From positions 1 through 64,000 of IMG/VR virus record IMGVR_UViG_3300042892_002114: a stretch of DNA of 64,000 nt. One strand, written 5' to 3'. Below, one piece after another: positions 6,771 to 35,248 of the stretch. Each line of letters opens with the position of its first letter. Position 1 is the first letter of the stretch. A program made the position numbers and the translations under genes. The notes below the pieces were generated by a model. It searched no databases, was not told the origin of the DNA, and saw nothing but the letters and a program-made list of their open reading frames with translations. The DNA is from a virus.

Positions 6771-6773
6771 TTT

Positions 6774-12000: not shown

Positions 12001-13605
12001 TTATACTTCGTCCAAGTTGCCGATGACGATTTTGCCAAAAAACTCTGGTCTCAAAATCTTCTTGGCGTAGCGTGTCATTACGCCACGACGTGGAGTAAAG
12101 TTCACTGGATCATACACCAACGGTGTTTGAATCAGTGGGATATATGGAGCGTAAACAGCGCCGGTTTCTAGGAAGTTTGTTCCACGGAAACCTACCAACA
12201 TAACATTGTCTGTCATGTATGGGTTCTTGTATACTGTCCAACGGTTGCTTAGAGCGCCAACTTTGGCAACGCCCATTGCGAACTTGGCTTGGTCGCCGTC
12301 CGTGTTGGTGCTGAAGCCTGGGATGGATTCAATGATTGTAGCTACGTCTGGGGAGCAAACTAGGAAGTTTGCACCGCCACGCAGTGTCAATTGGTGAATC
12401 TTATTCGAGACCTTTTGGATCTTGTTGCCCAGTGTTTGGAACCATGTGCTCTTGACATATGCAGTGCGGTTAGCAGCTGTGTCTTGGAATCTTCCAACGG
12501 AAGCATTGTATTCACTACCAACGCGAGCTGACCAGTATTCAGTTGTAGCATCTGGAGCAGCTGTGACCAACATGTCCAAGATTTCCAAATCAATTTCCAT
12601 CGAAACGTATTCAGATAGAAGAGCGGTTAGCTCGGCTTCTGCGTCGATAGAGTGATATGCATTCAAGTCTTGAGCCAATTCTGGTGTCCAGACGGCTTTC
12701 AACTTACGGGTCTTGGCAACAATGGCTTCCGACTTCAACTCTAGGTTGACTTCTGGAATACCGATGTCGTTTGGTGTACCGGTGGTATTTGGCAATCCGG
12801 TTCCTTTGTCTTCGAAGTCGCCACGAGATGTTGGCTCTGGTTGATTGTGGTACGAAACGCCGAAGCTGTTTGCACCAGCTGCAATCGACGCAGATGTTAC
12901 GAAGGTTACGGTAGAACCGGATGTGGTTGTGAATCCTGGGTAGAAATCAACAATGCCAGAACCGCTGATGGTGAAGGCACGAACACCGGTGGTGTCAAAG
13001 CCTGTACCAGCTAGGTCAACTGTGACTTTGATGATTTGACCGTCTGCGACAGACGCTGAAAGTTCTGGAACGAACTTTGCATCCAGCCAAGAACCTGTGG
13101 CCAAAGAACCTGTTAGGCTGACGGCGGTGTCATTGATGGTGTAACCGAAACGACCTTGGCCATATAGACCATTGACGGCGGAATCAGTTGAACCATTCTT
13201 TGTGCCCGTACCACCGAACAACGATTGACCGTTGAAGGCTGGTTTACCGGCTTGGTTGGAACCATACTTGAAGTCCAGATAGAATACCAGACCGGAAGGA
13301 AGATTCATCGGTTGAACCGAGACGAATTCCTTGGCAGCGATTTCAGCGAAAACGCGGCGAACTAGTGGGAGAGCAACGCCAGCCCATTGTTCGGAATTAG
13401 CGGAGGTACCTGTGCGGGTAGCTTCGTCAATTAGTTGCTTTGCTTGATTTTCCAAAAGGATGGACATGTGCGACTTTTCGATGTCGCTTTTCATGCCTTC
13501 TAGAAGACCTGTTTTTTCCCATTTGGTCATTAGACCGCGTGTTTGAGACATTAGTTGAACCATTGGGTTCGATGTCTCGCTTAGTAGTGATTTGATGTCT
13601 GACAT
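12001..13605 (-). CDS. 23: Major capsid protein, gp23-like
   Basis: The 534-residue protein has the T4-type capsid signature at about 75-115: VALPLVRRVFAEIAAKEFVS, VQPMNLPSGLVFYLDFKYG. It forms the hexameric shell lattice of the head (HK97 fold in the family). Residues 58-62 (LIDEA) contain an I-D-E/A site at the place where T4 gp23 is cut after Glu65 by the gp21 protease, so mature protein probably starts at Ala62. AGGAAA lies 7 bases before the ATG. The gene follows the scaffold gene and ends at a strong terminator, matching high late expression. Its codons are richer in G and C at third positions than most neighbours. Confidence 0.95.
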   Translation of the reverse strand: MSDIKSLLSETSNPMVQLMSQTRGLMTKWEKTGLLEGMKSDIEKSHMSILLENQAKQLIDEATRTGTSANSEQWAGVALPLVRRVFAEIAAKEFVSVQPMNLPSGLVFYLDFKYGSNQAGKPAFNGQSLFGGTGTKNGSTDSAVNGLYGQGRFGYTINDTAVSLTGSLATGSWLDAKFVPELSASVADGQIIKVTVDLAGTGFDTTGVRAFTISGSGIVDFYPGFTTTSGSTVTFVTSASIAAGANSFGVSYHNQPEPTSRGDFEDKGTGLPNTTGTPNDIGIPEVNLELKSEAIVAKTRKLKAVWTPELAQDLNAYHSIDAEAELTALLSEYVSMEIDLEILDMLVTAAPDATTEYWSARVGSEYNASVGRFQDTAANRTAYVKSTWFQTLGNKIQKVSNKIHQLTLRGGANFLVCSPDVATIIESIPGFSTNTDGDQAKFAMGVAKVGALSNRWTVYKNPYMTDNVMLVGFRGTNFLETGAVYAPYIPLIQTPLVYDPVNFTPRRGVMTRYAKKILRPEFFGKIVIGNLDEV

Positions 13606-17626: not shown

Positions 17627-18253
17627 TTAACGGGTTTCTGAAAGAATATCACGAATGATATTTTCAATTTTTAGATATTTATTGATGTCTTTGCGATCTT
17701 GATTGCCGCCAATCAATTGTTTTTCACGATTGATGCCTTCGGCAAGATTCATATAAGCACCGCGTGTGCTTGGTGAAGATACAAGGTCAAAACACAATAG
17801 TTCAAAGTCATCTTGTACTTCAACAGTATTTTCATTCACATTGCGAACACTTCCCAAACCGCGACTACTAATACCAATACGAATATTGTTTCTAATCAAA
17901 TCTCTTGCAATATTACCACTTGGTGTAGTTAAAATTTCAATTGTACCAACCACAGTATCACCTTCCCAGTGACATTCTGTGACATTGTGGCATACATTCT
18001 TTAGATTGATGATACTGGATTCCGGATGATCAAGTTCACCCAGAGCGCGACGTTCTTTGATGATTTGTTGATATTTTTCAACTTCACGCTCTAATACTTC
18101 GCGTGGATATACACGACCATTATGATTCTTTTCACCGGCTTTTTGTAATGGACCTTTTAGAACCAATGGACCACCAGTATTTGCTTTTGCTTCTGTAAGC
18201 ATCTGCGGAGTGATATCAAATGGTATAAAATCTACTAATAGTTGTTTGCTCAT
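17627..18253 (-). CDS. 21: Prohead core protease, gp21-like
   Basis: Starting at the ATG at 18253 the product has 208 residues, close to T4 gp21 (212). The family is a serine protease of herpesvirus-assemblin-like fold. ALGELDHPESS gives the catalytic His76, WEGDTVVGTIEILTTPSGN is the typical strand, and RIGISSRGLG gives the catalytic Ser (129/130). NHNGRVYPREVL is the conserved substrate-cleft region. MLTEA at 19-22 is a likely self-cleavage site. It cuts after (I/L)xE in scaffold and capsid proteins during head maturation. The open frame extends 26 codons further upstream, but that part overlaps the previous gene. Confidence 0.92.
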   Translation of the reverse strand: MSKQLLVDFIPFDITPQMLTEAKANTGGPLVLKGPLQKAGEKNHNGRVYPREVLEREVEKYQQIIKERRALGELDHPESSIINLKNVCHNVTECHWEGDTVVGTIEILTTPSGNIARDLIRNNIRIGISSRGLGSVRNVNENTVEVQDDFELLCFDLVSSPSTRGAYMNLAEGINREKQLIGGNQDRKDINKYLKIENIIRDILSETR

Positions 18254-18254
18254 A

Positions 18255-18797
18255 TTATTTACTTTGTATAATGTTTCGTTTAGAAGCAATACCCATAGTT
18301 TGTGGATATTGAATACCACCAACTTGACCACGAGTCAAACTTGCTGGAGCTTGTGATTTTGCTTGAGGAGCATCATTTACTTGTATCTGTGAATCATCCA
18401 GATAATATTCATTTTCTGATTCATTGCCTTCTTTGCCAGTAAATACAATATAATATTTGTCTTTCATATAACGAACTTCAATGTTATTGACCGCGAGGCT
18501 ATATTCTTTTTCAATTTGGCCAACACTACCTTTGGATGCTTTTACAATTACATTCTTTTTTAGAAATGATTTCTTTAGTTCATCGGCCAGTTTTTTTACA
18601 GCAGCATCTTCTTGTTTTTCCAATTCTGTCTTGAAGTTTTTGAACATATTAGAAATATCAATCATTTTGGCATTTGGTGTAGCAGGAGGCGTGACTGCAT
18701 TTGGCGCACGGCCCGGTGACATAGCACCCGCAGCAGATGGATTGTTGCCCCATGTGTCTTCTTTCAAAATCTTTTTAGCAATGTCTGTTAGATTCAT
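18255..18797 (-). CDS. Hypothetical head-operon protein with capsid-targeting-like leader
   Basis: From the ATG at 18797 the product has 180 residues and starts MNLTDIAKKILKEDTWGNNP, with an L-K-E/D site at 11-13 closing an amphipathic helix. A Pro/Ala linker follows, then a helical region (NMFKNFKTELEKQEDAAVKK) and a small beta-rich part (IEVRYMKDKYYIVFTGKEGN). The fold is unknown to me. Its stop lies one base before the protease start, so the two are probably coupled. The longer upstream frame overlaps the next gene and is rejected. It may be an internal or core protein. Confidence 0.5.
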   Translation of the reverse strand: MNLTDIAKKILKEDTWGNNPSAAGAMSPGRAPNAVTPPATPNAKMIDISNMFKNFKTELEKQEDAAVKKLADELKKSFLKKNVIVKASKGSVGQIEKEYSLAVNNIEVRYMKDKYYIVFTGKEGNESENEYYLDDSQIQVNDAPQAKSQAPASLTRGQVGGIQYPQTMGIASKRNIIQSK

Positions 18798-19297: not shown

Positions 19298-19597
19298 TTA
19301 TTTTCCAATATATCCAACAAATGCATGATCTGATGGAGCATTGTTTACAATATACCAAGCTGCTGTGTCTGAAACCTCGGTTCCCATATCTCTAACATCT
19401 TCTCCTTGCATTAATGTTGCTTTTGTCCAATTGTTTGCTACTGATATATCACAACGATTTGCAACAAGTTTATATGGATTCATACTATACAACTCTTTAG
19501 AATCAACAAAATAAATGTATTTTCCAACAACCTTTTGTGGTTGTGTGGCTTCATTTATTGTTTCTCTGATTAGTTGTTTTAGTTCTGACTTTGTCAT
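19298..19597 (-). CDS. Hypothetical small head-operon protein with leader
   Basis: The 99-residue product starts MTKSELKQLIRETINEATQP. I-R-E/T at residues 10-12 and I-N-E/A at 14-16 both fit the T4 prohead-protease consensus; the latter has the classic Ala after the cut. The remainder (VVGKYIYFVDSKELYSMNPY, then AWYIVNNAPSDHAFVGYIGK) looks like a small beta-sheet domain. It may be an internal head protein. No known family is recognised. Confidence 0.5.
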   Translation of the reverse strand: MTKSELKQLIRETINEATQPQKVVGKYIYFVDSKELYSMNPYKLVANRCDISVANNWTKATLMQGEDVRDMGTEVSDTAAWYIVNNAPSDHAFVGYIGK

Positions 19598-20526: not shown

Positions 20527-23500
20527 TTAGAGTGGTTTATCATCATCAATTAGATTAGACTCATCCATAATGGATTTTTCTTCGGTTATTATTTTCTTAT
20601 TTTTATTATTATACTTGTCCATCAATGACTTTTTTATACTTTTAAGATCTTCGTCCATGCTACCCAATGGGGAACCTCTGTATATATGAGTCGTTCTGCG
20701 GTCTGACTTGGACTTTTCTTTATTTTGTCCGTTGCCAAGAATATCTTCTCCGCGTGTTTTTGTGAATGTATCGCTATATTCTTCTTTTTTGCCGTCTTGA
20801 CTTGGACGAATGCCGCGCTCTCTTTCTTTGCGAGTTTCTTCATCAAGAACTGGCTCATTTGCGTTCTTTTCTTCTTCCAACGGTGGCAAACCACCGGCTT
20901 CACCACCACCACCAGCGTCTTCGCCACCGCCACCAAGGTCTGGTAGACCGCCAGCATCTCCACCACCGCCACCCATGTCTCCACCACCACCACCACCGGA
21001 TTCACCACCAGCTTCACCACCACCGGTGGTCAGAGCGGGATCACTGCCTTCGTCGGTAATTTGTTGAATTCTCCAACCTTCTTTTTTGTCTTTTATGACT
21101 TCTTGTTGCAGATCTTCAACATCATCGCCGGACATATTGAATATATTATTATATAGCCACTTCTTGCTAAACATATTGCTCTCCATCATATCGGCAGCAA
21201 GATTTACTTTATTCTGCCAAATTTCCAACTTTTCTTGTTCAAAGATGGTAGAAGGATTGCTCAATTCCAACTCAAAATCAACCAACGACGCATCTTGATA
21301 TCCTTGTACATACAAATGAACAATAGCAATCTTGGTCAGTTCAGAAACAAGAATACGTTGAATACGACCAATGGTACGAGCAAAACGAACATCTTCTGCT
21401 GCCAATGTAGCCTTGCCAGAAATACTTTCATCATAACCCAAGAATGCTTTTGGAATCTTGAGTGCTGCCATCATTTTATTACGAACATATTCCAAGTCAT
21501 CAATACCAGTAAATTCCATACCAGGTAATGTATCAATCTTTGTGCCACTGTCTCCACCACGAACTGGTAGATAAAAATCTTCAACCATATTATTCAAGTT
21601 GAAACGAAGGTTATAATCACCAGTCTTTTCATCAATATATGGCACTTTTTTAACTTGAGTGATAATCTTTTGCATGGCGGCATCAACTTCACTTGGTGCA
21701 ATATTACCAACATCAATAGAGAAAATACGCTTTTCCGGAGCCTTCATGATACGATGGATCAACATGGCATCTTCCATAAGGCTCAATTGCTTCCATACAC
21801 GACGTGCTGGTTCAATCATGCTCTTGCCATATGGTAAGAAATTGCTATCACTCAACAATCTAAAATGAGCAATTTCAAAGTTTTCATATTCCATACCACC
21901 ACCCATACCATCATGCTGATATTTGACATAGTTAAGATTTTTTGGATCACTACCTTCAACACGAGTCAATTCATATGGACTGATTGGATGCACCAAGTGA
22001 ATGCCATATTCTGGTGATATTTCCAATCTCAAGAAAAAATCACCATATTTACAATTCTTTACAAATACTCCACTGTTTGGCATGATTGAACCATTGGCAT
22101 CTCTTCCACATACTGCAAAATTATGCCTATCATCTTCTCCATTTGGACCAACCACGGTCATGCAATATACGTCGGCGGTTTCATTAACAACTTCAATCCG
22201 AGCAACTTTGTGATTGGACACCACAAATGAATCCATATTTTCTTTTTGAATTCTTCGAAATTCTCTGTTATTAAGAGAAGACCACTCGGAAATAAATTTT
22301 GGATTATTTTTTAAAGATTGATATGCCGCTTGCATGGAGATTGGAGAACCCCCATTAAACTTTACTTCATTGTATATATCCAACATTTTACTTGACCATT
22401 TTACTTTCATTCGAAACTTTGCCATATCAGACCGAACTGGATCTTTCCACATTTCTGTTTTATTCTTTGCCCTGACACTATTGTGAGATTGATGAAGGTC
22501 GGAAGAATTGTATTTAATAAAATCCAGTACCGGTTTTCCTTTCATTTCTTTACTCAATCGCTCGCGTCTAGAACTTGAACGAAGATACTTGTCTATACCC
22601 ATCAAACGTTTTTTTGTCACTTCCGGTGAGTGTAGAATTTTTTTACAATGGTCCGCGTGCAATTGGCGATGTGCAAAGAATTCCATTGGTTCTAAATTTG
22701 GCGGAGTATTGTCGTATTTGTTAAAATTCTTGTGGTGCAAAATTCTATTTTCCTTGTCAGTTTCTATTCCAGACGATTTAGCCACCAACCGATGTGTGTA
22801 GTCATATTTATCGGTTTCTGGATTATATATCATCTCATACTCGTTCATTCCTCCTTTTTTTGGACTCAACTTGCGATAAAATGGCATCAAACTGTCATTT
22901 TCTAACAACTCATCTGCTCTCTTGGTAGTTCCGTTGCGAAGTATGAATGGATGTTCTGGCGCGGTTTCTATTACCGAGCCATCATCAAGTGTCACTTTTA
23001 CAATTTTGTTTGATGTATAATTTTTGTTACACCACACAACTTTACCAGGAACAATCTTTTTAGTATCATCTTGTACAGAATAAACCCAAATTTCCTCACC
23101 GGCGTTTAATCGGTTTGATAGCGACTCTATAGTAATAATCTCACCCGATAGGATTGGAATTGGGGAATCGTATTTGACTGGCATGTTTCTGGTCCAACTC
23201 CACATATTGAACTCAACATTTAAAATATCATAAAACAAATTGTTGAGAATTTTTTTGATGTTTTCATTCTTTGAGCGAATTGTAAGAACATTTCCAAATT
23301 CTGAAGGAACAAGGCACTCATCTGAGTAAATATCCAATGCAGATGCAATGATTGGGTCCATGTCCATTACATCATAATCTCTAAACAATTCTAAACGACT
23401 TGCTTGATATGCCATAGACATATCGCGATTATGCAAGTTGTATGTACTGCTTCTTAATCTATTGAAACGATCACGCAAACTATTTCTGTCTGTTGCGTAT

Positions 23501-23613
23501 TGAATTTCATCTGTGTCTATAACTTTTATCTTTTTTCCGCCAACATGACGCACGAGCACGTCCGTTGAGAACATCTTCTTTAGTCTTGTGAATATATCTT
23601 TTTGTTCTGCCAT
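20527..23613 (-). CDS. 20: Portal vertex protein, gp20-like, interrupted in frame by an intein
   Basis: The full product has 1028 residues; removing the intein (145-520) leaves 652. The N-extein ends LNVEFNMWSWTRNM and the C-extein begins CKYGDFFLRLEISPEYGIHL, the normal continuous sequence of this portal family. PISPYELTRVEGSDPKNLNY, PARRVWKQLSLMEDAMLIHR and PGMEFTGIDDLEYVRNKMMA are typical portal core segments. The portal is the dodecameric ring through which DNA is packaged and the head-to-neck joining site. The C-terminus adds about 150 residues beyond T4 gp20 (524), with a Gly-rich linker and a charged tail. The gene sits between terminase and head-core genes in T4 order. Confidence 0.93.
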   Translation of the reverse strand: MAEQKDIFTRLKKMFSTDVLVRHVGGKKIKVIDTDEIQYATDRNSLRDRFNRLRSSTYNLHNRDMSMAYQASRLELFRDYDVMDMDPIIASALDIYSDECLVPSEFGNVLTIRSKNENIKKILNNLFYDILNVEFNMWSWTRNMPVKYDSPIPILSGEIITIESLSNRLNAGEEIWVYSVQDDTKKIVPGKVVWCNKNYTSNKIVKVTLDDGSVIETAPEHPFILRNGTTKRADELLENDSLMPFYRKLSPKKGGMNEYEMIYNPETDKYDYTHRLVAKSSGIETDKENRILHHKNFNKYDNTPPNLEPMEFFAHRQLHADHCKKILHSPEVTKKRLMGIDKYLRSSSRRERLSKEMKGKPVLDFIKYNSSDLHQSHNSVRAKNKTEMWKDPVRSDMAKFRMKVKWSSKMLDIYNEVKFNGGSPISMQAAYQSLKNNPKFISEWSSLNNREFRRIQKENMDSFVVSNHKVARIEVVNETADVYCMTVVGPNGEDDRHNFAVCGRDANGSIMPNSGVFVKNCKYGDFFLRLEISPEYGIHLVHPISPYELTRVEGSDPKNLNYVKYQHDGMGGGMEYENFEIAHFRLLSDSNFLPYGKSMIEPARRVWKQLSLMEDAMLIHRIMKAPEKRIFSIDVGNIAPSEVDAAMQKIITQVKKVPYIDEKTGDYNLRFNLNNMVEDFYLPVRGGDSGTKIDTLPGMEFTGIDDLEYVRNKMMAALKIPKAFLGYDESISGKATLAAEDVRFARTIGRIQRILVSELTKIAIVHLYVQGYQDASLVDFELELSNPSTIFEQEKLEIWQNKVNLAADMMESNMFSKKWLYNNIFNMSGDDVEDLQQEVIKDKKEGWRIQQITDEGSDPALTTGGGEAGGESGGGGGGDMGGGGGDAGGLPDLGGGGEDAGGGGEAGGLPPLEEEKNANEPVLDEETRKERERGIRPSQDGKKEEYSDTFTKTRGEDILGNGQNKEKSKSDRRTTHIYRGSPLGSMDEDLKSIKKSLMDKYNNKNKKIITEEKSIMDESNLIDDDKPL
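22054..23181 (-). mobile_element. Intein with HNH homing endonuclease, in the portal gene
   Basis: The 376-residue insert (portal residues 145-520) begins with Pro145, with a block-A-like DSPIPILSGE at 149-158. Block B is GSVIETAPEHPF, with His221. An HNH nuclease follows: ILHHKNFNKYDN (291-302), Asn306, and HRQLH (315-319). Block F is DVYCMTV (481-487), then HNF at 497-499. Block G is GVFVKN with terminal Asn520, and Cys521 is the +1 residue. Position 1 is Pro, not Cys or Ser, and block F position 4 is Cys484. This suggests a splicing route starting at the block-F Cys, as in class 3 inteins. The penultimate residue is Lys, not His. Splicing itself is inferred. Confidence 0.92.
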
Positions 23614-23680: not shown

Positions 23681-25336
23681 TCACAGCAGCCATGTTAGGT
23701 CTTCTGTTTTGCTTTGACCAGCCACACCACTTGGACCACCAATGCTCATTTTCCAAGGATTGCTGTAAACTCCATAAGGATTATTACCAGATTTATGCAA
23801 TGCCACCATATTATTTTTTATCTGCTCACTTGAAGTGGAACCTATCTTTGATATTATAAGACGAGTAGATTCATCTGCTTCTTTTCTCAATCGCAATGCT
23901 ACATCTCTTATCCACAATCCAATAGCCATTGACAATACGAGGTCATCATTATAACCAGTCATGGCTTCTGCTTTTGCAGATGATCCACCGGTGTTTTTCC
24001 ATATGAATACATTCAGTTCTTCCAACAATCGCTTGCTGTGTATGATTACTTCTTTATTGCGAATATAACTTTCAAGCTTAGATATTAGAAGCGGTCTGGA
24101 CTTATTGGATGTGGTAAAGCCCGGTGTCATTTTGCGTTCTTCGGCATTTATCTTGTTTGTGGATTGAGATTCTACATCCACATATTGTAGGTCCGATGAA
24201 CTATAAAATAGATTTGGATAGTTGCTGTCTAATACAACTTGTATAACTGCCCATCCTACGTTGGCATTTTCTATAACAAGCAATGCTTGATTATATTCAG
24301 TTGCAATCGTCATAAGCAATCGAGCATAATCACTTGTGGGTATTTTTCCTTTATATTCTGCCACTTGTTCCATTGTTTCTATTTCCAAAACTTGACATGC
24401 ACTAAAGTCGGCGGCGTCTCCTCGACCAACGTCGGCACTTATCATATAACTCTTACCAGCTTCTGGATATTTGTATATCCACAATCCTTTGTCATGTCCT
24501 CGCTTTTCTGTTGGATCAATCGCGTGATTTTTTTCATACCATTCTAGTAGTGGAATATCAATAACGGTATTACCTGATGTGCTAAATTCACAATCACATT
24601 CTTGTGCCGCACCTTTTTCGCCGGACAACTTTGTTTGATCATCGCGCCATTTTTGATCGCGTTCTGGATGATGATTCCACGGTAAGCTAATGCGATTCAT
24701 GTTGTTTAGACCAGATTCACTTTCTGTCCACATTTTGTGAAACCAATTACCCACACCATTCGGTGTAGACAACACAACCGCTTTACCACCAGTAGCCAAT
24801 GTGTATTGTGAAGACAACCAGATTTCGTCGATATTGTCGATGAACGCAGCTTCGTCAATGATCAGCAAAGATGCGGCACCTGAACGACCGGCTGTACCCG
24901 CTGATGAAATAGCAACAATCTTGGAGCCGTTGGATAGTTTCAATGACAGTCGATTGTCTTCTGATTCTCGCAGTTTCAACCAACTTGGTAGATTGTCATT
25001 GGCAAAACGAACTTTGGTTACAATTGCTTTGGATGTTTCTTGAGTGATACTCAAACAAATAATTTCTTTGTTTTCATGAAACACCATGAGCCACAATGAA
25101 TATCCAGCAACTAGTGTAGTAATACCCATCTGACGACTCTTGAGAATAATATTTTGGTCATACTTTATCAAGTCGGCCAAAGTTTTGTCTTGAAATGGAT
25201 AAGTAAGAAATGGCAGTGTGCCGCGAATAGGATGTTGAATCTTCACATACTTCTTCATGAAGTATATTGGGTCTTTGGCACACTTTATATACTCTTCCCG
25301 AATTACATCTCTAATATTTTTTGTCGTATTAGACAT
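23681..25336 (-). CDS. 17: Terminase large subunit, gp17-like
   Basis: The 551-residue protein has the packaging ATPase and headful nuclease domains. Walker A is the T4-type KSRQMGITT (66-74) and Walker B is LLIIDEAAF (158-165, Asp161/Glu162). Motif III is VVLSTPNGVGNWF near 188-199. The RNase H-like nuclease shows SADVGRGDAADFSA (Asp302), a second acidic strand in LLVIENANVG and a third in GYNDDLVLSMAIG. It pumps DNA into the prohead through the portal and cuts concatemers. Length and order (17 then 20) match T4. Its ATG lies inside the end of the upstream gene by 8 bases. Confidence 0.95.
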   Translation of the reverse strand: MSNTTKNIRDVIREEYIKCAKDPIYFMKKYVKIQHPIRGTLPFLTYPFQDKTLADLIKYDQNIILKSRQMGITTLVAGYSLWLMVFHENKEIICLSITQETSKAIVTKVRFANDNLPSWLKLRESEDNRLSLKLSNGSKIVAISSAGTAGRSGAASLLIIDEAAFIDNIDEIWLSSQYTLATGGKAVVLSTPNGVGNWFHKMWTESESGLNNMNRISLPWNHHPERDQKWRDDQTKLSGEKGAAQECDCEFSTSGNTVIDIPLLEWYEKNHAIDPTEKRGHDKGLWIYKYPEAGKSYMISADVGRGDAADFSACQVLEIETMEQVAEYKGKIPTSDYARLLMTIATEYNQALLVIENANVGWAVIQVVLDSNYPNLFYSSSDLQYVDVESQSTNKINAEERKMTPGFTTSNKSRPLLISKLESYIRNKEVIIHSKRLLEELNVFIWKNTGGSSAKAEAMTGYNDDLVLSMAIGLWIRDVALRLRKEADESTRLIISKIGSTSSEQIKNNMVALHKSGNNPYGVYSNPWKMSIGGPSGVAGQSKTEDLTWLL

Positions 25337-25712
25337 AATTGTGAGGTTCGTATTTGGTATATAACGGATGTGTATAATTTGCCATTACAATGTCTGGTAT
25401 TTCATCATACACATATTTTCTAAATTGTGAAGCCGATGCATCAATAATCACACCCTCCACTTCCACCCAATCATGGTCTATGGTATATTCATCATTTACT
25501 TCATCTAATGGACTAATAAATTGATATGCCGCTGGTTCGTCCAACGTGAAATTACCTTCAATATGTTTGGCATTTATTCCACGACTTTTTAGTTCTTTGA
25601 CCAAATCTTTCGCGATAAACTCGCACATACCTTTTTCTGGGTATTTGTTCTTTACTCTGATTGCCAATCCTTCGATTATATCAGACTGGTGCAAGAACTG
25701 AGTCAATTTCAT
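25329..25712 (-). CDS. Hypothetical protein, possible transglutaminase/papain-like fold
   Basis: The 127-residue product has the spacing of a small Cys-His-Asp protease-like domain. CEFIAKDLVKELKSRG (Cys near residue 30 on a helix) is followed by DHDWVEVEGVIIDASASQF, in which His-x-Trp-Val-Glu and I-I-D-A supply candidate His and Asp. The first 14 residues, MKLTQFLHQSDIIE, end in I-I-E/G, matching the prohead-protease consensus. It is thus possibly a packaged enzyme, but activity and fold are guesses from pattern. It overlaps the terminase start by 8 bases and the upstream gene by 32 bases. Confidence 0.5.
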   Translation of the reverse strand: MKLTQFLHQSDIIEGLAIRVKNKYPEKGMCEFIAKDLVKELKSRGINAKHIEGNFTLDEPAAYQFISPLDEVNDEYTIDHDWVEVEGVIIDASASQFRKYVYDEIPDIVMANYTHPLYTKYEPHNYV

Positions 25713-26301
25713 TATTGATTTTCTTTAACTCCTTTTCGCCATCTTTTATTTTCTTCAAACAAGTTTTCCAATCTTTTTCAACAAGTGTAGTCAATTCAGC
25801 ACGCACATTATTATCCCATTCTTCAACAAATCCATTGGAATTGACATATGTTAGTTTCTTTGAGCTGTCTGATGCCAAATATTCTCTACTTTCTTTCAGT
25901 TTACGCTTTATATCTTTCAAGTAAGATAATTCATTTTCCAATAGTTTCTTGGTTTCGTATAACTTGAATTTTCCTTTGACACGCAGTTGAGTTTCTTCTT
26001 CAACCAAACAATCAAAGCATTTTTCAGTTTTGAAATACATTTTGCGATCAAGTTTTGAACCCCAACGAACCTCGGTTCCACAGCATTTACATTTATCGTT
26101 GGTTTCTATTCTAATGATGTCTGAAACTCTGGTTACTGCTGACGGACCATATTCTCTTTGTTCCCATTCTTTTCCACTGCTGTCTGTCCATCGTTCACCC
26201 GTTTTGCGAATGATAAACTTATCCTTATCGCCAGTATATCCTACTTTTATGTAGGGTCTTTCTCCCGCCAAATATGACTTAATTATATCCGTGTTTTTCA
26301 T
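25681..26301 (-). CDS. Hypothetical zinc-binding, coiled-coil protein upstream of terminase
   Basis: Of 206 residues, the middle contains CKCCGTEVRWGSKLDRKMYF then EKCFDCLVEEE, a four-Cys zinc-ribbon-like site at about 71-96. From residue 110 on it is predicted coiled-coil (KKLLENELSYLKDIKRKLKE). I recall similar unknown proteins in marine T4-like phages. T4 has the small terminase gene 16 just before 17, and a coiled coil would fit a terminase small subunit, but the zinc site is not typical. I make no functional call. AAAGG precedes the ATG by 8 bases. Confidence 0.55.
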   Translation of the reverse strand: MKNTDIIKSYLAGERPYIKVGYTGDKDKFIIRKTGERWTDSSGKEWEQREYGPSAVTRVSDIIRIETNDKCKCCGTEVRWGSKLDRKMYFKTEKCFDCLVEEETQLRVKGKFKLYETKKLLENELSYLKDIKRKLKESREYLASDSSKKLTYVNSNGFVEEWDNNVRAELTTLVEKDWKTCLKKIKDGEKELKKINNEIDSVLAPV

Positions 26302-26362: not shown

Positions 26363-29300
26363 TTATATGGATATTCCTAAAATCGTTTTGGCTGCTTTTT
26401 GTATTGGAGCATATTCTGCTGATTCCAACCCCGCTTGAGTCAAACCTTCCTTGGCTCTTTCCAGTGCTTTGACTTGAACATCTTTTGGTAGAGTCTTCAT
26501 GAGTGTCAGCAATCCAACATAACTTCTGAAGTTTTCAACATCTTGACCACTTGGCTTGCGTTTAAAAATAAGCTCAAATACTTTATTTACGCTGTTGATA
26601 CGATCTTCTGGTTTGCTTTCGCTGGCAGCAATGTCGGTATAAACATCCACCTTTTTACCTTGATAGTCCATATTCTTAGCCACAAGGCGATATGCCTTGC
26701 GCACACCGGCATGACCAGAACCGCTTGTATTGAGAGTATATTCTGCTGGTAGAGCATGTGTAGCATTGACTGATACAACACTCTTGCCTTTGGCATCAAC
26801 CAAACTCTTCAACTGACCAGATTGTATCTTGAGTGCAGTTGAGTTGGTGACATACACCGCATTTGGCAGTGCGGTTGCTGCTCGTGTCAGACCGCGTAAT
26901 AAAATAGCTCCTGCTAATCCTTTGATGCCAGTCGTCAAATCTTGCCATGGAGAATCTTTAATAAACTTGTTCCACTCAGATGGCTTTTCATAGCCTTGAG
27001 GGTCCAATGTCATTTCATCTCCTTCAAAGTCGATTTGAACAACCTGTTTTACCGGAGAATAATACCACAATGTGACTGTTTGACCTGCCAAAGCACGTTG
27101 ATTTTTTGTACGACCAACATAATGAAAATTTTTACTAACTTTATTTTTTGGTGTTGCTTTCCATTCAACTTGCTTGTCATCAATACTGTCCAAATATGCT
27201 TCCATTGTGTCCAATTTTTCTTTTGGCACAATCACATCAATATCTCCAAAAGCAGATTTGTATTTAGCCAAATCTTTATATTTTGCATCGCCGCTCATTA
27301 GATATTGAGAACTGCCGTTGAACACAAACCCATTTTCAATATATGGATTGTTCTTTTTCCAAAAACCTACCTTACTATTCAGTGCATATATAAGTTCCTT
27401 CACATCACCAGATACAGCAGAACGAATGTCTTTGCCTTGTGGATCAACAATCCTGAGTTTTGTGGTGGCTTGGGCTGGTTGACCATTTACGGTCTTTGAC
27501 GTTTTGTCATCTACAGCAGCAACAGATTGACCAGACTCGGTCAATGATGCAATTGCTTCTCTGATTAGTTGCTTGGCTAGTTCTATACCAAGATTTGCGT
27601 CGTGTTTTATTTTTTCAATATTTTTCATAGCTTCTGGTGTTTCTGCTTTTTCTAATTTTTTTGCAGTGCTGGCCGATTTCATATTTTTTATGAATGTATC
27701 CAGCACATATTTTACAAATTCTTCTCTGGATTTAAATGTTGTTCCATTCTTTGATACAACAACTCCTTTATCAAATGCTCTGTTATTATCAAGTGCTTTA
27801 CTCAAAGCAACCACGGTTTCGCATTTTTTCTTTAATGATGGATCGTTTGCATCCAATCCATAATAACCTTGTAATACTGATGAATTTACTTTTGAAACAC
27901 CAGCAAGATTGCCATAGAACTTCAATATATCCAAAAATACTTGATTTGGATTAAAGAACACAGGCTTTGAGTTTGTTTTGATCAGAGATGACGCAACCTT
28001 GCCATCTATCGTATTTATATATGGATTGGTGTTTGATCCCAACACAACATTAAGAGCATCGGATAATGCACTCAATAGATTTCCAGTAACAAATCCTTTT
28101 AGTCCTTTTTCCGGAGTTGTTCTAATTTTTGTCCATTCCGATGATACTTTATATGACAAAACCAAATCAACTTGAATTTTTTCACCACCAACGTTGAATA
28201 TTAAATATCCTGTACCAAAGTCTTTATCTTGAAAGTTTGGATATATATAACTTGGTTTTTTTTCTTGAATAAACTGGATAATCTTTTCTGAATACTTTTT
28301 ATTAGATGCTAGTTGTGATGTTCTATCATTAGTTTCTTCTGGTAATATAATTTGAATATCTATATCACCATATTCTACACCATCTTTTTCTAAATCTTGT
28401 TTATAATACATTGCTGAACCTACCGGTCCATTGGATTCTATTGGAGGAAGATTTGAATATGCATTGAATTCTGAAACAAATTTATCCATTGCACTCAAAA
28501 TATTTAACACTTTCTTTGGAGTTATAATAGTTGATTGTGTAGAAGTAGATCTCCAACCGCCTTCACCAAACATTTCTTTTTCTATTTCATTTACAACTTC
28601 CTCAGCAAAGTTTATATATGGATTAACTTCTGATACCGGCTCTGGCTTGTTTGCTATGAGAGTATTCCAAATTTCTTCTTTGTCTTTGTTGCCGACCGGT
28701 GGAAGATTTTTCAAGAATGATTCTTTATCATTGTTCATCAAAAATTCACGCATTTTTGTGCCACTTACATTCACTGTAGCAGTTCTTTCTACACCAATTT
28801 TTTTAATTTTATTAGCAGCCAACAACTCTGGATACTTTTTTAAATCTTCATCTTTGAAGTTTATTTCAACATCATCTTTGTCAGAATACAAATTTATGGT
28901 TGGCATATCTGCGGCATCTTGAGTCAATCTTTGTTCCAACCACGCAAGTTCATGCATAATGGCCCGAACTGGAGAATCAACAAACTTTACTTTTACATTC
29001 TTTGGCAAAGATGGAATAAACACATCACTCCATAGTTTTACAAAGTCATCTCCCTTTATAGGAAACTCACCCTTCTTTATTCTATCGGAAGATGATGTAT
29101 AAACAATGACTCGATCATTTTCATTGGCTGCTTTTTCAATAAGCTTCCAGTGACCAATGTGCAGTGGCTTGCCAGCAATTGGAATAAGACCAAGAGTTTT
29201 GTTGGTTGATCCCAACAACCCTTGTTTGGATGTCATCAAACGAATCGTATCATGAATATCATCTTTGATTTGAACAATGTTCTTTTTGTTGCCAGCAATC

Positions 29301-30283
29301 TGTTGTAGAGCATCAAAGAACTTCTTTAACTTTGGTTGATTCTTAGCAACATAAAAATTTGAATCTGAAATAACATCTTCTTCGGATTTTCCTTCAGTAC
29401 CAATTGCGGCAAAAATATTTTGTATCAATGCTCTGATTTGTTGAAAGTATGCTGAAGCGGCTTCTGGTTCAAGTTTATATGCGTCCTTCTTTGCACCACG
29501 AACTCCAGCATCATATTGATCGGCTTGCACCAACTTGAAGAACTCTCCATTATCAAGCTTCATTACCACACCTTCTGTTGTGCCACCCAATGTAGATGGA
29601 ACAGCCAAAATAGCCTCCGAAAATTTTGTTACAACATCAGTCGGATTGGTCCAATCAACATTTGTTAGTTTTGATCCAAACAACGGATTCTTCAGCAGAT
29701 TTTCCTTGCTGAGTTTTCCCTGAAAGAAGATAGGAAATGATGATATTTCCAACAAGTCTGCCATCTTGTTCACAGATTTGTAGTCTGTTATTTCTTGTTT
29801 CGGAATGGTATGCAAATCTCCGCCAACCACACGATACTGCACTTCACCATAACTTCTTAAAAACAAGCCACCCTTGTTGACATATGTACGAGTCAAAGTG
29901 TCTTTGTTTTGAGCAAACTCAACGCTAAACTCAGTACTCTTTGGAATGCTGTTAATCTTATTGTTTATCTTAGACAAATGATCAAATATCATGGAATATT
30001 GACCAATGCCAACAGAAGATTGGGATATATCACCCTTTTCTTTATCATTCAAATGAGCAAACTCTTTGGCATACAACACAGTTCCTTTGTATGCCACAAC
30101 CCAATTCTTGGTATAATCTGCTTTATCAACTTGCTGTGTACGCACCAATGTCAGTTTTGTTCCATCCACCTTTTCGGTGATGACCATGTTCTGACTTAGT
30201 ATTTCATTGGCTCTTTTTAGACGCAGTGACTCTGTTTTTGGTTCAAAAATATACTTTTTTAGGTTTTTTATAGAAATGTCCAT
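26363..30283 (-). CDS. Four-domain nucleotidyltransferase protein (ligase-like, NMNAT-like, two pol-beta-like)
   Basis: This 1306-residue protein carries four distinct nucleotidyl-transfer signatures. (1) Residues 30-255 look like a DNA/RNA ligase core: EKVDG (Lys38), FSVEFAQN (119-126), TEGVVMK (236-242), FFKLVQ (248-253). (2) Residues 362-520 look like a cytidylyltransferase/NMN adenylyltransferase: LGLIPIAGKPLHIGHWKLI with the H-x-G-H at 375-378, and NVSGTKMREF (505-514) as the ISSTxxR-type motif. (3) Residues 615-715 form a polymerase-beta-type domain: VGS, GDIDI (Asp640/Asp642), QVDLVL (Asp706). (4) Residues 985-1090 form a second one: NGSS, GDIDVIV (Asp1014/Asp1016), QIDFEG (Asp1085). 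Acidic leader-like helices (LAKQLIREAI) lie between them. No signal peptide or transmembrane helix is seen. Substrates are unknown; RNA repair or NAD metabolism are possibilities. Confidence 0.75.
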   Translation of the reverse strand: MDISIKNLKKYIFEPKTESLRLKRANEILSQNMVITEKVDGTKLTLVRTQQVDKADYTKNWVVAYKGTVLYAKEFAHLNDKEKGDISQSSVGIGQYSMIFDHLSKINNKINSIPKSTEFSVEFAQNKDTLTRTYVNKGGLFLRSYGEVQYRVVGGDLHTIPKQEITDYKSVNKMADLLEISSFPIFFQGKLSKENLLKNPLFGSKLTNVDWTNPTDVVTKFSEAILAVPSTLGGTTEGVVMKLDNGEFFKLVQADQYDAGVRGAKKDAYKLEPEAASAYFQQIRALIQNIFAAIGTEGKSEEDVISDSNFYVAKNQPKLKKFFDALQQIAGNKKNIVQIKDDIHDTIRLMTSKQGLLGSTNKTLGLIPIAGKPLHIGHWKLIEKAANENDRVIVYTSSSDRIKKGEFPIKGDDFVKLWSDVFIPSLPKNVKVKFVDSPVRAIMHELAWLEQRLTQDAADMPTINLYSDKDDVEINFKDEDLKKYPELLAANKIKKIGVERTATVNVSGTKMREFLMNNDKESFLKNLPPVGNKDKEEIWNTLIANKPEPVSEVNPYINFAEEVVNEIEKEMFGEGGWRSTSTQSTIITPKKVLNILSAMDKFVSEFNAYSNLPPIESNGPVGSAMYYKQDLEKDGVEYGDIDIQIILPEETNDRTSQLASNKKYSEKIIQFIQEKKPSYIYPNFQDKDFGTGYLIFNVGGEKIQVDLVLSYKVSSEWTKIRTTPEKGLKGFVTGNLLSALSDALNVVLGSNTNPYINTIDGKVASSLIKTNSKPVFFNPNQVFLDILKFYGNLAGVSKVNSSVLQGYYGLDANDPSLKKKCETVVALSKALDNNRAFDKGVVVSKNGTTFKSREEFVKYVLDTFIKNMKSASTAKKLEKAETPEAMKNIEKIKHDANLGIELAKQLIREAIASLTESGQSVAAVDDKTSKTVNGQPAQATTKLRIVDPQGKDIRSAVSGDVKELIYALNSKVGFWKKNNPYIENGFVFNGSSQYLMSGDAKYKDLAKYKSAFGDIDVIVPKEKLDTMEAYLDSIDDKQVEWKATPKNKVSKNFHYVGRTKNQRALAGQTVTLWYYSPVKQVVQIDFEGDEMTLDPQGYEKPSEWNKFIKDSPWQDLTTGIKGLAGAILLRGLTRAATALPNAVYVTNSTALKIQSGQLKSLVDAKGKSVVSVNATHALPAEYTLNTSGSGHAGVRKAYRLVAKNMDYQGKKVDVYTDIAASESKPEDRINSVNKVFELIFKRKPSGQDVENFRSYVGLLTLMKTLPKDVQVKALERAKEGLTQAGLESAEYAPIQKAAKTILGISI

Positions 30284-30309: not shown

Positions 30310-32445
30310 TTATATCAATTTTTTGACTTGTTTCAATACCATATCTGCTGATATTTCCTTGGAACATTCAAAGTTTTTGTTCCTTGGGCACCAAAACCAA
30401 TCATTGCGACTAAACTTGCAGGACATATCGTTCCAACAACCATTACAGACACTTTCATTGATTACTCTATATTCAGTATGAAACTCGCACAGACTCTTGG
30501 TAAATCCACTGATCAACACCACGGGCTTGCCCACGGCCCATGCCAACCAACTCAAACCAGAGCTTAGTCCAATAAAGAACTGTGCGCCTGCTATTTGAGC
30601 CATGCGTTCGTCCAGTGTAAAGTCGCCAGTTTTATCCACACAACCTTCTGGCATATAATTCATACTTTTGTCTACGCCAAAACTATTGTGTCGGTCAATG
30701 CACCATACTTCATATCCATTGCTCTTTAGATAATCCACCACGGTCTTCCATCCAGTTTTATTGTTCCAATACTTTGCTTGACAAGTACTTTGAGTAGCAA
30801 TACACACATATTTCTTCTTTACATTTTTATACTTATTGGCATCAAAAGTAATCTTTGGTTTGTATTCTATATTGGTCAAACCTAGTATGGTTGTGGCAAT
30901 TGAACATAGATTGAGCAACCTTGGGTCGGTTGGAATATGATTCTTGGTATTTTCTCCATCAAAACATCCAATCTTGTATTTAGCATAATATGGATCTGTA
31001 TACACATCCACTGCCAAAAATTTTATATTTGGATAATTCTTCTCAAACATTGGACGAAGTACTTTATTAAACACTGCACATTCCATTATACATTGATGTT
31101 TCTTCTGAAACTCATCAACAGCACCAATCCACGCCAACAAATCTCCTAAACTTTCACTGTCCAATACAACTTTAACTTTTTTATTTTTTGGATCAAATGT
31201 GTGTTTTTCTACCAATACATCATAACCATCTGATATGTCATATACCTCAACCACCCACTTGTTGAAATACTTTGTGGAAGTTGATGCCCACATATTATTT
31301 TTAAGTTTCGTTTCATATACAACATGACCTGTATGAAAATCAATAAACTTGATCTTATAACTCTTGTCAACTGGACCGGGTATATCTACCTTAGCACCAT
31401 CATCAAAAGTTATTTTAATTTTGTTTTCTGGTTTCTTTGGCTCTTTGTATACCACGTCTGTATTTTTATAACTATCAATCAACTGATTACCAAAAATACA
31501 TTCACAATATTCGCTGTATAGTTTGGCTAAGTCATGTACTCTGTTGCTGTACGAATTTTCTTTGGCATTTTCCAATGCGGCATTTCTATATGCTTTATAA
31601 TTTAATCTCACATCTTCAATACCATGAATTGCTTCAGATATGTCACGTGAAGTAACAACCATACCTTTGTATTTTTTTTCTTCAAACGTACCAACCACTG
31701 GCAACCCACATGCCATTGCTTCTAATAATGTGAGGTTTGGATGACCAGCCTCTAGTTCAGAGAAGTGTAAAAATATATCATGACTGTTATATAACTCAAT
31801 GAGCGACTTTTCATCCAAGTCATATAACTTGGTCAACTGTTCATAGTTGTTGAGTTCGGGATCGAGTGTTTTGAAGAAGTTATCGTTGTTACGCGGACCA
31901 GCAATTGTCAGCGGTAGTCCCAACTGTTTGGCTGCTTGAATTGCAATAGCAAACCCTTTACGGTCTTTGCTTTGGTCATTAGCATATCCATTGTTGGCTA
32001 CGCACAACAACTTTGGACTGCTGCTCATCTCTCTTGTTTTGTATGTAAAGACATCTGTATTGACGGCGTGAGAAAAGTAACGCAACTTTTTGCTGCCAAA
32101 ATATGGTATCAAAAACTTACATGGTGACAAAGAAAACACACTATTTTCAATTGCTTTAAAATTTTCTTTATACACATGCGATTCTTTGCCATACAAAAAT
32201 GCGTGATGATCATGAATGCTAAAGATGTATGGAACACCGCGTTCATGAAGCATATTGGCGAGATTGGCCACGTGTACATGCACAACCATACTTTCATCAT
32301 ATTTAACATCATTGAGATATTTTATCTCATTACGGATGTTCAGCTTGTTCAATTCAAGATGATAATCCCAGATAATTTTTTCGATTGCACCCCACCCATT
32401 TGGTGGAATTGATATAAGTCCCGGCGTAATATTGATTATTTTCAT
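30310..32445 (-). CDS. Two-domain glycosyltransferase: GT4-type plus TibC-like O-heptosyltransferase
   Basis: Residues 1-330 form a GT4 glycosyltransferase: PPNGWGAIEKIIWDYHLEL at the N-terminus, LLCVANNGYANDQSKDRKGF in the middle, and LTLLEAMACGLPVVGTFEEK as the donor-binding E-x7-E region. Residues 400-711 resemble autotransporter heptosyltransferases of the TibC/BAHT type: SLGDLLAWIGAVDEFQKKH, FFIGLSSGLSWLAWAVGKPV, and a C-terminal Cys cluster (CNGCWND, then FWCPRNKNFEC; Cys667, 670, 686, 694) like the iron-binding site of that family. Known members transfer heptose from ADP-heptose to Ser of autotransporters. Fusion in a phage suggests building a glycan on a virion or host-surface protein; the acceptor is unknown. 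It is the last gene of the glycan island. Confidence 0.8.
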   Translation of the reverse strand: MKIINITPGLISIPPNGWGAIEKIIWDYHLELNKLNIRNEIKYLNDVKYDESMVVHVHVANLANMLHERGVPYIFSIHDHHAFLYGKESHVYKENFKAIENSVFSLSPCKFLIPYFGSKKLRYFSHAVNTDVFTYKTREMSSSPKLLCVANNGYANDQSKDRKGFAIAIQAAKQLGLPLTIAGPRNNDNFFKTLDPELNNYEQLTKLYDLDEKSLIELYNSHDIFLHFSELEAGHPNLTLLEAMACGLPVVGTFEEKKYKGMVVTSRDISEAIHGIEDVRLNYKAYRNAALENAKENSYSNRVHDLAKLYSEYCECIFGNQLIDSYKNTDVVYKEPKKPENKIKITFDDGAKVDIPGPVDKSYKIKFIDFHTGHVVYETKLKNNMWASTSTKYFNKWVVEVYDISDGYDVLVEKHTFDPKNKKVKVVLDSESLGDLLAWIGAVDEFQKKHQCIMECAVFNKVLRPMFEKNYPNIKFLAVDVYTDPYYAKYKIGCFDGENTKNHIPTDPRLLNLCSIATTILGLTNIEYKPKITFDANKYKNVKKKYVCIATQSTCQAKYWNNKTGWKTVVDYLKSNGYEVWCIDRHNSFGVDKSMNYMPEGCVDKTGDFTLDERMAQIAGAQFFIGLSSGLSWLAWAVGKPVVLISGFTKSLCEFHTEYRVINESVCNGCWNDMSCKFSRNDWFWCPRNKNFECSKEISADMVLKQVKKLI

Positions 32446-32529
32446 TTTAAATTCTTTCTATCCAATTTGGTGTAGTCACCGTATTTGTATCAGTGTATAT
32501 ATTTAAAGTTTTGTTTGATGTCAAGTATT

Positions 32530-33510
32530 TTATTTCAATCTTACAAAACTTCTATTTTTTGGATCAAGTATGCTATTTTTATTAAATTTAATTAAGCGAG
32601 CATCACTGATTCGTACAACAAATTCTTGGTTTTTTGGATTTATTTTAAAAACCATGCCCGTGAGCGAATTGGGTATAGTTTCGCATAAAACGTCATCAAC
32701 ATATACCTCCAACTTATCAGCTCTTGGACTTTTATTTAAATACACAAATGCAATGTCTGTCGTATTTTCTATCTTGAGCACGGTTGAAATACCAACCATG
32801 TCAGTCACAATTCCATCCTCCGCGAACGCACTCATACCATGCTTACTGGTTGCAAAATATTTTTCAATTCCAATATTTTCAAGCATATGAACGTCTCCAA
32901 ATAATTTTTTTCTCTCAACGCTCTTATACAAGAAACTTTCCAGCGTTCCATATGCACCAACTTCTTTGCAGTTAATTATATATTCGTCGGAGGAATTTGA
33001 AAACTTAAATGTATTCTTAAAAAATTCAATTGATGAATAAAATATCGTTGAAACGAACACATAATCAAATTTTAAAAACATTGCTTTTTTATTGTTAGTT
33101 TCAGATATATTTTTTAAATTTTTTAACTTTATAACATCTTGTTCCGAAAATAGACAGTCACCTTCCACATAAACAAATGAATCATATGAATCTTTCGCAA
33201 AATTGACTGCGTTCATTATAGAGCGAAACACTGCATAACTATGATTTTTATGATTTGCAAGTTGGTATATTCTAAAGAAAAACTTGGGATAATCCGCGTA
33301 AAAATTAACATTTGGATTTGATGGTATAAAATCGTTGCGACAATCGTATATAAAATATTTAACCATATTTTGTATTTCTTTACTAACCGGACAGTGCGTA
33401 ACCAACAAAACATCAAAATCGTTATTAACTCTTTCCAAAACGGATTGTAAAACTTGTTCCGTTTTTTGCTCGGATGGGTATGAGCCAACTATCAATAGTT
33501 GTTTTTTCAT
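32530..33510 (-). CDS. Glycosyltransferase-like protein (GT-A type)
   Basis: Residues 1-150 look like a GT-A Rossmann-type domain: QLLIVGSYPSEQKTEQVLQS at the start, FDVLLVTHCPVSKEI, and SFVYVEGDCLFSEQDV, where E-G-D stands in the usual D-x-D position. The C-terminal 80 residues, from about 245, are beta-rich (VYVDDVLCETIPNSLTGMVF) and resemble segments in the other large proteins of this island. No family is assigned with certainty. The ATG overlaps the upstream methyltransferase stop by 4 bases, so it belongs to the same operon. Confidence 0.6.
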   Translation of the reverse strand: MKKQLLIVGSYPSEQKTEQVLQSVLERVNNDFDVLLVTHCPVSKEIQNMVKYFIYDCRNDFIPSNPNVNFYADYPKFFFRIYQLANHKNHSYAVFRSIMNAVNFAKDSYDSFVYVEGDCLFSEQDVIKLKNLKNISETNNKKAMFLKFDYVFVSTIFYSSIEFFKNTFKFSNSSDEYIINCKEVGAYGTLESFLYKSVERKKLFGDVHMLENIGIEKYFATSKHGMSAFAEDGIVTDMVGISTVLKIENTTDIAFVYLNKSPRADKLEVYVDDVLCETIPNSLTGMVFKINPKNQEFVVRISDARLIKFNKNSILDPKNRSFVRLK

Positions 33511-34421
33511 TTTGTCGCGTATATGAATCCAACTGTATCATTTTCTGTACAATGTCTATATTGTACGTTATATCCATTATCTATGAGTTTTTTGGCTATT
33601 GGCTTTGGATCAAAGTGAAACTCAATGAAGAATTGATTTATTCTATCAAAATGTTTTTGGTTTAAATTTTCAATTACTTTAAATTCAGTTCCTTCGATGT
33701 CAAGCTTTAGCAAATTTATATTGTCTTCCATACTTAATATAGAATCTACGCATGTTGTTGGTACATGTATTTTTACAGAATTTTCTACATTCAAAAACTC
33801 ACTTGTACCAACCGATGCTCCAAGTGATATGTTTATATCCATACCAACATCCGACACATTCATACCTTTGTTGAGCAGCGTTATGCTTGCATCTTGACCA
33901 AAGTTTTTTTCCAAGTAAAAGAACGCCAATGGATCTGGGTCTATACTGTATATCTTTCTTGCACCAAAGTGTTTAGAATATAAAGTAAAAAACCCAACGT
34001 TGGCACCAGCATCAACAACTGTACCAGAAACGTCTATATCTTTACACAAATCCCCATAGAAGAAGTCTGCGTATGATGGACCGGTGGGATCAAATGGATC
34101 TGAATGAAATGTGCTGGCAAACCGTTTTGCGTTCTTGTTTACAACAATATTTTGATATTGGATCAGTCGAAAATCTTTGTTATATATTTTTACAACAAAT
34201 CCGGGAAAATTTGGATTATTTATAACAAATGAATTTATTTTTTGGGACAATGGTTGCATCCATAAATTTAAACCGGCCTCCACATCTTGTGTACAAGCAT
34301 AATAAACAGCACCCGTATACAAGTCACCAACAGTGAATATATACTTTGACGTATATTGCAATTTATAGTTAAAATAAACTGCAAAATTTTCTCGGTCTAA
34401 ATATAAGTCGAAAAAAATCAC
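33507..34421 (-). CDS. FkbM-family SAM-dependent methyltransferase
   Basis: After a beta-rich N-terminal part (1-110), the protein has the FkbM motifs. GTVVDAGANVGFFTLYSKHF is the SAM-binding glycine loop, KIYSIDPDPLAFFYLEKNF the acidic strand 2, and NLLKLDIEGTEFKVIENL then FIEFHFD the signature. FkbM enzymes O-methylate sugars and other hydroxyl groups. It probably caps or modifies a glycan made by the neighbouring transferases. Overlaps of 4 bases on each side show a tight operon. The N-terminal 110 residues resemble the extra region in the 850-residue island protein. Confidence 0.85.
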   Translation of the reverse strand: MIFFDLYLDRENFAVYFNYKLQYTSKYIFTVGDLYTGAVYYACTQDVEAGLNLWMQPLSQKINSFVINNPNFPGFVVKIYNKDFRLIQYQNIVVNKNAKRFASTFHSDPFDPTGPSYADFFYGDLCKDIDVSGTVVDAGANVGFFTLYSKHFGARKIYSIDPDPLAFFYLEKNFGQDASITLLNKGMNVSDVGMDINISLGASVGTSEFLNVENSVKIHVPTTCVDSILSMEDNINLLKLDIEGTEFKVIENLNQKHFDRINQFFIEFHFDPKPIAKKLIDNGYNVQYRHCTENDTVGFIYATK

Positions 34422-35236: not shown

Positions 35237-35248
35237 AGTTGTGTTTTA

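Follow-up and report, generated by a model that had tools for sequence, protein, structure and literature searches.

A four-domain phage polypeptide with ligase, NMNAT-like and pol-beta-type modules as a candidate head-packaged repair polyprotein

The gene and its four domains

The DNA analysed here (the window) is a stretch of 64,000 nucleotides, positions 1 to 64,000 of the IMG/VR virus record IMGVR_UViG_3300042892_002114. An open reading frame (ORF) at 26363-30283 on its minus strand, contained in a 91-kb virus record, starts with ATG, has no internal stops and encodes a polypeptide of 1306 aa. Four nucleotidyltransferase-type domains follow one another along the chain: an RNA ligase 2 (Rnl2)-type ligase (LIG), an NMNAT-like domain (NMN) and two DNA polymerase beta (pol-beta)-type nucleotidyltransferases (N1 and N2). 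The polypeptide may be a polyprotein of repair enzymes that is packaged in the phage head and cut at its joints by the head maturation protease, with RNA as the most likely substrate. The features of the gene are:

26363..30283, minus strand: whole ORF, ligase - NMNAT-like - N1 - N2 (ORF call, IMG/VR relatives)
29510..30283, minus strand: Rnl2-type ATP-dependent ligase core, residues 1-258 (Pfam RNA_ligase, fold match to T4 Rnl2, conserved residues)
29213..29509, minus strand: helical bridge between the ligase and NMNAT-like domains, residues 259-357 (AlphaFold2 model, pTM 0.88)
28649..29212, minus strand: NMNAT-like HIGH-superfamily domain, residues 358-545 (profile match to NMNAT, fold matches, motif table)
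28562..28615, minus strand: leader-like helix ending F572-G-E574, predicted site E574↓G575, residues 557-574 (conservation, pLDDT <50 at 567-575)
27638..28561, minus strand: N1, pol-beta-type nucleotidyltransferase, residues 575-882 (invariants, model, fold search)
27536..27637, minus strand: leader-like helix ending L914-T-E916, predicted site E916↓S917, residues 883-916 (conservation, pLDDT <50 at 913-918)
26366..27535, minus strand: N2, pol-beta-type nucleotidyltransferase, residues 917-1306 (invariants in 52 sequences, phrog_19290, model)

A sequence-only reading of the window had proposed four such domains in one chain (ligase, HxGH and two pol-beta types), and this was borne out by the intact ORF, confident AlphaFold2 models and fold matches. 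The residues that it named as catalytic (K38, H375/H378, D638/D640 and D1014/D1016) are all present. Structure prediction and fold searching, which it had put forward as a check, recovered T4 Rnl2, archaeal NMNAT and DNA polymerase beta, the last with N1 and N2 searched joined. In homologues, the ligase residues, H378 and the nucleotidyltransferase sites are invariant, whereas H375 and R512 are lost in about half.

Homologues were collected domain by domain and then placed in deep alignments, since the Pfam matches of single sequences were weak. The window protein alone matched Pfam RNA_ligase weakly over residues 33-245 (E 3e-4), and RNA_ligase (PF09414) was matched by 16 family members, the best at 1e-6. 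The ligase contains motif I (K38xDG, with the K38 codon at 30170-30172), E122, E237G and K250; motifs I (KxDG), III and IV (EG) of the covalent nucleotidyltransferases are all present. The residues K38, D40, G41, E122, E237, G238 and K250 are invariant in 39/39 homologues, at identities down to 23%. Motif V of Rnl2 is KxK, with two lysines. In the 39-sequence motif table this pair is absent from the window ligase family, in which only K250 is retained and the first position is hydrophobic. With a single lysine in motif V, the domain is classed as Rnl2-like and not as a canonical member of Rnl2. The AlphaFold2 model of residues 1-560 (pLDDT 91.0, pTM 0.88) packs the ligase and NMNAT-like parts as a single unit. 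Its top fold match is T4 Rnl2 (2hvr, E 5e-8), and a Naegleria RNA ligase and archaeal NMNAT/NadM were also recovered.

The NMNAT-like domain carries the motifs H375-I-G-H378 and S507-GTKMR, which are complete in the window lineage. For the window protein alone, Pfam gave HIGH-type matches at residues 358-404 and PHROGs gave an NMNAT/cytidylyltransferase family, while across family members the Pfam matches to Citrate_ly_lig and CTP_transf_like reach 2e-12 and 2e-8, respectively. The family profile matches NMNAT/PPAT structures at 8e-9; PPAT and cytidylyltransferases have the same fold. The pair of motifs used to define the domain on the HIGH fold (HxGH and ISxTxxR) is found in the window and is retained only partly in distant relatives: H378 is invariant (39/39), H375 is replaced by Thr or Ser in 24/39 and R512 is lost in 20/39.

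The active sites of N1 and N2 are GS..GDID638/640..D706 and GSS..GDID1014/1016..D1085, respectively, and the GS..GDxD..D triads are invariant in both families (52 N2 and 23 N1 sequences). Residues 973-1272, within N2, match a PHROGs family of unknown function. An AlphaFold2 model of residues 550-1306 (pLDDT 86.9) was searched with both transferases joined, so that a match is not attributable to one of them; the best PDB match is DNA polymerase beta (E 7e-4), followed by superfamily members including mu/lambda, with modest TM-scores. A PDB sequence search with the N1 and N2 profiles gave nothing useful, and profile comparison of shallow alignments detected no homology between N1 and N2. N2 was not found in bacterial or archaeal genomes by one pattern scan, at the sensitivity of which it looks phage-only. 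Identity of N1 or N2 with RlaP was considered and rejected, PF10127 being unmatched by the window protein and by N2 family members. Separate RlaP genes occur in three records, and a 297-kb relative (L202) contains a separate RlaP-type nucleotidyltransferase gene (3e-17) and P-loop kinase genes.

The proposed repair module in close and distant relatives

Close relatives of the ORF were identified at 28 IMG/VR loci, most complete ones being full length with 64-100% identity. The window probably derives from a large phage, because a copy with 97% identity (L007) is located on a 297-kb contig. Another 97%-identical copy (L022, 1944-5159) has lost window residues 617-860, the greater part of N1, without a frameshift, by natural deletion or as an assembly artefact. 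The domain order in close relatives is LIG-NMN-N1-N2 or LIG-NMN-N2. N1 is absent from L028, L056, L105 and L109 and is on this comparison dispensable.

In distant phages the parts occur as separate genes, commonly N2 followed directly by LIG-NMN. A single chain with N2, then a KxDG motif and then HxGH (motifs assigned by eye) is found in L135-L153. Fusions in these two orders, LIG-NMN-(N1)-N2 and N2-KxDG-HxGH, indicate that fusion occurred more than once. In Xanthomonas phage X1 and Stenotrophomonas phage YB07, N2, the KxDG protein and the NMNAT-like domain are encoded by separate adjoining genes. Two N2 paralogues lie side by side in L083 and L132, and those of L083 precede the LIG-NMN gene.

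Several other genes accompany the module. A calcineurin-type metallophosphoesterase is encoded near it in 15 contigs (Pfam Metallophos, 2e-9) and a P-loop kinase in 6 contigs (AAA_33); in L059 the kinase is fused to LIG-NMN. A CCA-adding-type gene is found nearby in Va1 and L125, and a recurring neighbour family, F454, shows a possible PD-(D/E)XK pattern by eye. End healing, nucleotide addition and sealing are established parts of RNA repair (PMC7824862). The kinase and phosphoesterase neighbours, the Rnl2 fold and the invariant ligase and nucleotidyltransferase sites support the repair of RNA (or nucleic-acid) ends. The module as a whole points to nucleic-acid repair by end healing, nucleotide addition and sealing, with RNA the most likely substrate. 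Of the two functions suggested in the sequence-only reading, RNA or tRNA repair is thus favoured, and restoration of NAD as a counter-defence is disfavoured for the reasons given below.

Leaders, predicted processing sites and head genes

Standalone N1, N2, ligase-NMNAT, kinase and nuclease-like proteins frequently bear a leader that resembles the T4 capsid-targeting sequence and ends in (L/I/F)xE before the mature protein. The T4 proteins IPII and IPIII start MKTYQEFIAE↓A. Residues 4 and 7 of IPIII are involved in targeting and residues 8 and 10 in processing (PMC9026906), and the positions common to the leaders of the relatives and the T4 leader are these four.

Standalone N1 often starts MKIREIILE↓GGW or similarly, with Glu at P1 in 35/35 and a hydrophobic P3. 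Standalone N2 either has a short leader ending (L/I)xE before GGN or starts directly as M-GGN; P1 is Glu in 46/46 correctly parsed leaders (the mis-parsed entry L105 is excluded) and P3 is Leu or Ile in 44. After removal of Met, the M-GGN form has an N terminus identical to that of the leader form after the predicted cleavage. Many phages with a leaderless N2 bear a leader on LIG-NMN, such as MDFLRYLNE↓GKEQLDISI, MNFVQYINE↓GKEQLDISI and MNFETYLSE↓SRDQLDISI. A leader-type start is found in L138 on the LIG-like, NMN, N2 and F454 genes and on one gene upstream, and an N-terminal leader is also present in L105 and L109, which lack N1. In L191-L198 (~5980-7690), a leader-bearing N1 has a lysozyme-like domain fused at its C terminus (judged from tblastn matches to phage endolysins).

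The strict T4-like pattern is enriched in LIG genes (8/52 versus 11/516 other ORFs; Fisher p 1e-4, a value to be taken only as a guide because many of the sequences share ancestry and do not count independently). Of the 11 background ORFs, several are kinase or F454 genes of the operon. The pattern is not enriched in N2 compared with other ORFs; the case for a leader on N2 comes from the (L/I)xE↓GGN junction together with the forms that start M-GGN without a leader.

The sequence-only reading had described leader-like helices between the domains. Helices are present at both joints of the window protein, and the description can be refined to segments that resemble protease sites. Both E574 and E916 are invariant in 18 distinct four-domain proteins, with F/L or L at P3, and P2 ranks among the columns that vary most. 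At the first joint, E574 and G575-G-W are invariant in the 18 fused sequences and in 35 N1 sequences in all, with a hydrophobic P3; at the second, L914, E916, S917 and G918 are invariant in the fused proteins, and a second possible site, IRE909, lies in the same helix. The first three residues aside, the model of residues 550-1306 falls below pLDDT 50 only at 567-575 and 913-918, each after a helix.

The genome that contains these conserved protease-type sites also encodes a gp21-type protease. The head genes identified in the window are:

23681..25336, minus strand: large terminase subunit, third gene downstream of the window ORF (Pfam, PHROGs)
20527..23613, minus strand: portal, T4 gp20 type, split by an intein (Pfam, PHROGs)
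17627..18331, minus strand: T4 gp21-type head maturation protease, presumed processing enzyme (phrog_207, E 1.5e-53)
12001..13605, minus strand: major head protein (phrog_138, 2e-72)

Going downstream from the ORF, two small genes come first, followed by the large terminase and the portal, and then by the protease and the major head protein. Linkage of the large terminase to the window-type gene is maintained in the close family. The propeptide of the major head protein ends LIDE and is followed by ATRTG, the cleavage site being assigned by analogy with T4 gp23.

Several further genes were noted. Beside the window gene, 25329-25712 encodes a 127-aa protein with a leader-like start, MKLTQFLHQSDIIEGLAI, that is conserved in four close relatives, and 25681-26301 encodes a 206-aa protein with a Cys-rich (possible zinc) segment that is kept beside the gene in 10 related contigs. 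A lysozyme-like ORF at 8865-9521 on the plus strand (weak PF00959) has the leader-like start MRIIKLKDLLYEQKLIEA. Two small genes near the head cluster, 15220-15669 and 19298-19597, start MKILKLRPLIEGID and MTKSELKQLIRETINEA, respectively, and these starts end in an (L/I)xE-type site. The intein of the portal gene consists of a splicing domain (160-489) and an HNH endonuclease, and a homing endonuclease gene (10354-11877; phrog_3339, 9e-98) adjoins the major head protein gene. Upstream of the window ORF, a block of glycosyltransferase- and methyltransferase-like genes (assigned by eye) occupies 30310-37801.

Proposed function, rival explanations and known systems

Packaging, which the sequence-only reading had raised as a possibility, receives strong support at the sequence level from the T4-like leaders on relatives and the conserved (L/F)xE sites at both joints. 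In the proposed mechanism, the polyprotein would be made late, beside the packaging genes, and drawn into the prohead. Two cuts by the gp21-type protease, E574↓G575 and E916↓S917, would separate ligase-NMNAT from N1 and N1 from N2. These enzymes would be ejected with the DNA and act before phage gene expression. The Rnl2-type ligase would seal nicks or breaks, the two pol-beta-type transferases would restore lost nucleotides, and the NMNAT-like domain would assist via adenylyl transfer; in relatives, the ends would be made ready by the kinase and phosphoesterase. RNA would be the most likely substrate, such as tRNA cleaved by anti-phage nucleases of the host. A repair polyprotein that is packaged in the head, cleaved there by the gp21-type enzyme and ejected along with the DNA is the best explanation of the computed folds, active sites, gene context and leader motifs, and we give it an even chance of being correct.

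Several observations weigh against this explanation. The window protein has no N-terminal leader of 10-19 residues ending (L/I)xE and starts directly with MDISI, and its predicted sites lie inside the chain and are without the aromatic residues that serve targeting in the T4 leader. Among some 26 phages that encode the parts separately, about 7, including Va1, have no visible leader on either partner, and packaging may therefore not be universal. The gp21-type protease was detected in 11/39 leader-bearing contigs and 7/17 contigs with leaderless N2, many of these contigs being fragments; a search of the contigs without phrog_207 for PF03420 and phrog_3014 gave no match, but the controls were silent too, so that this result carries no weight. 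N2 and LIG-NMN are not evident among the 11 gel proteins of Campylobacter phage CP220 and are not named in the virion proteomics text of Campylobacter phage CP21. As for the substrate, nicks that contain DNA can also be sealed by Rnl2-like ligases and the best fold match of N1-N2 is pol-beta, which leaves DNA repair some probability.

The absence of a leader from the window protein and from both partners in phages such as Va1 would be expected of a cytoplasmic RNA-repair multienzyme, neither packaged nor cut, in which the joints are leader remnants of gene fusion. This is rather unlikely, since 18 diverged fusions all have Glu at P1 and L/F at P3, with P2 one of the positions that vary most, the sites lie in disordered loops and the gene remains beside the terminase and portal.

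A machine for DNA end or gap repair, mending packaged or newly injected phage DNA by pol-X-like filling and nick sealing, would fit the fold matches of N1-N2 to DNA polymerase beta/mu/lambda; some operons also encode the possible PD-(D/E)XK nuclease-like protein. Against it, the ligase belongs by fold with RNA ligase 2 and the Naegleria RNA ligase, and the module can have a CCA-adding-type gene close by; DNA repair is judged slightly less probable again than the uncut cytoplasmic enzyme.

An enzyme restoring NAD as a counter-defence, with NMNAT activity as the main point, would account for the complete HxGH and SGTKMR motifs of the window lineage and for the NMNAT/NadM fold matches. It is improbable because the NMNAT motif decays among homologues in which the ligase residues are invariant, and because NAMPT was found in only 5/24 records, none of the window lineage. 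The 19/24 records in which it was not found include the window's contig and close relatives, and neither NAMPT nor NadV was found in that contig or in the 97%-identical 297-kb relative. A structural or protein-modifying role in the head, with nucleotidyltransferase folds retained for another purpose, would suit the N1-lysozyme-like fusion and the adjoining portal and is very improbable given that the nucleotidyl-transfer residues are all invariant across very diverged homologues.

If the packaged repair polyprotein is extended to the group as a whole, T4-like and jumbo phages would carry a complete repair machine in the head by means of T4-type leaders and inject it against host nuclease damage at entry, the window lineage using a polyprotein cut by the head protease; this wider proposal is held a little less firmly than an even chance. 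RNA repair by phages is known as a response mounted once infection is under way. With a kit that arrives together with the genome, translation or the entering nucleic acid would be protected ahead of all phage gene expression, and the known use of T4-type capsid targeting would be widened. A leader ending (L/I)xE before a conserved mature start would also be a simple sequence sign for further injected enzymes. The prediction is sharp at the sequence level (two cut sites, three products and named catalytic residues), and cultured phages in which to look include Campylobacter Firehammervirus, the Vibrio Va1 group and Stenotrophomonas Menderavirus. Literature searches limited to open-licence papers recovered jumbo-phage RNA repair, T4 capsid targeting, polyvalent proteins and NAD salvage but not the module or its packaging; what appears to be new is the leaders on standalone relatives together with the matching sites at both window joints.

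Among known systems, the phage NAD salvage enzymes NadM/NadR (PMC9503650) share an NMNAT-like HIGH domain. Unlike these, the window protein lacks a fusion to a Nudix or kinase domain of their kind and has no NadV partner in its lineage, and the motif is decayed in relatives. The polyvalent proteins of phages and conjugative elements (PMC5512222) likewise combine many enzymatic domains per chain and are thought to be injected; a term search of that paper did not find the ligase-NMNAT-nucleotidyltransferase architecture, and the window chain is seemingly cut by a head protease. RNA repair operons with RlaP pol-beta nucleotidyltransferases (PMC7824862) and bacterial Pnkp/Hen1 repair also combine a ligase with a pol-beta transferase, as the module does with kinase and phosphoesterase close by in relatives. 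In contrast, N1 and N2 do not match RlaP, which is a separate gene in the 297-kb relative, an NMNAT-like domain is added, and the leaders here suggest packaging. T4 Rnl2 resembles the window ligase in fold, in motifs I, III and IV and in the ligase lysine (Lys38), whereas motif V of the window protein is K250xxQ and its ligase continues into a helical bridge and then an NMNAT-like domain as part of a multienzyme. The capsid-targeting sequences of T4 IPI-III and Alt are similar in having a short (F/Y)xx(F/Y)(I/L)xE leader before the mature protein and a gp21-type protease in the genome; the cargo proposed here differs in being a set of repair enzymes, and the window sites lie internally, between the domains.

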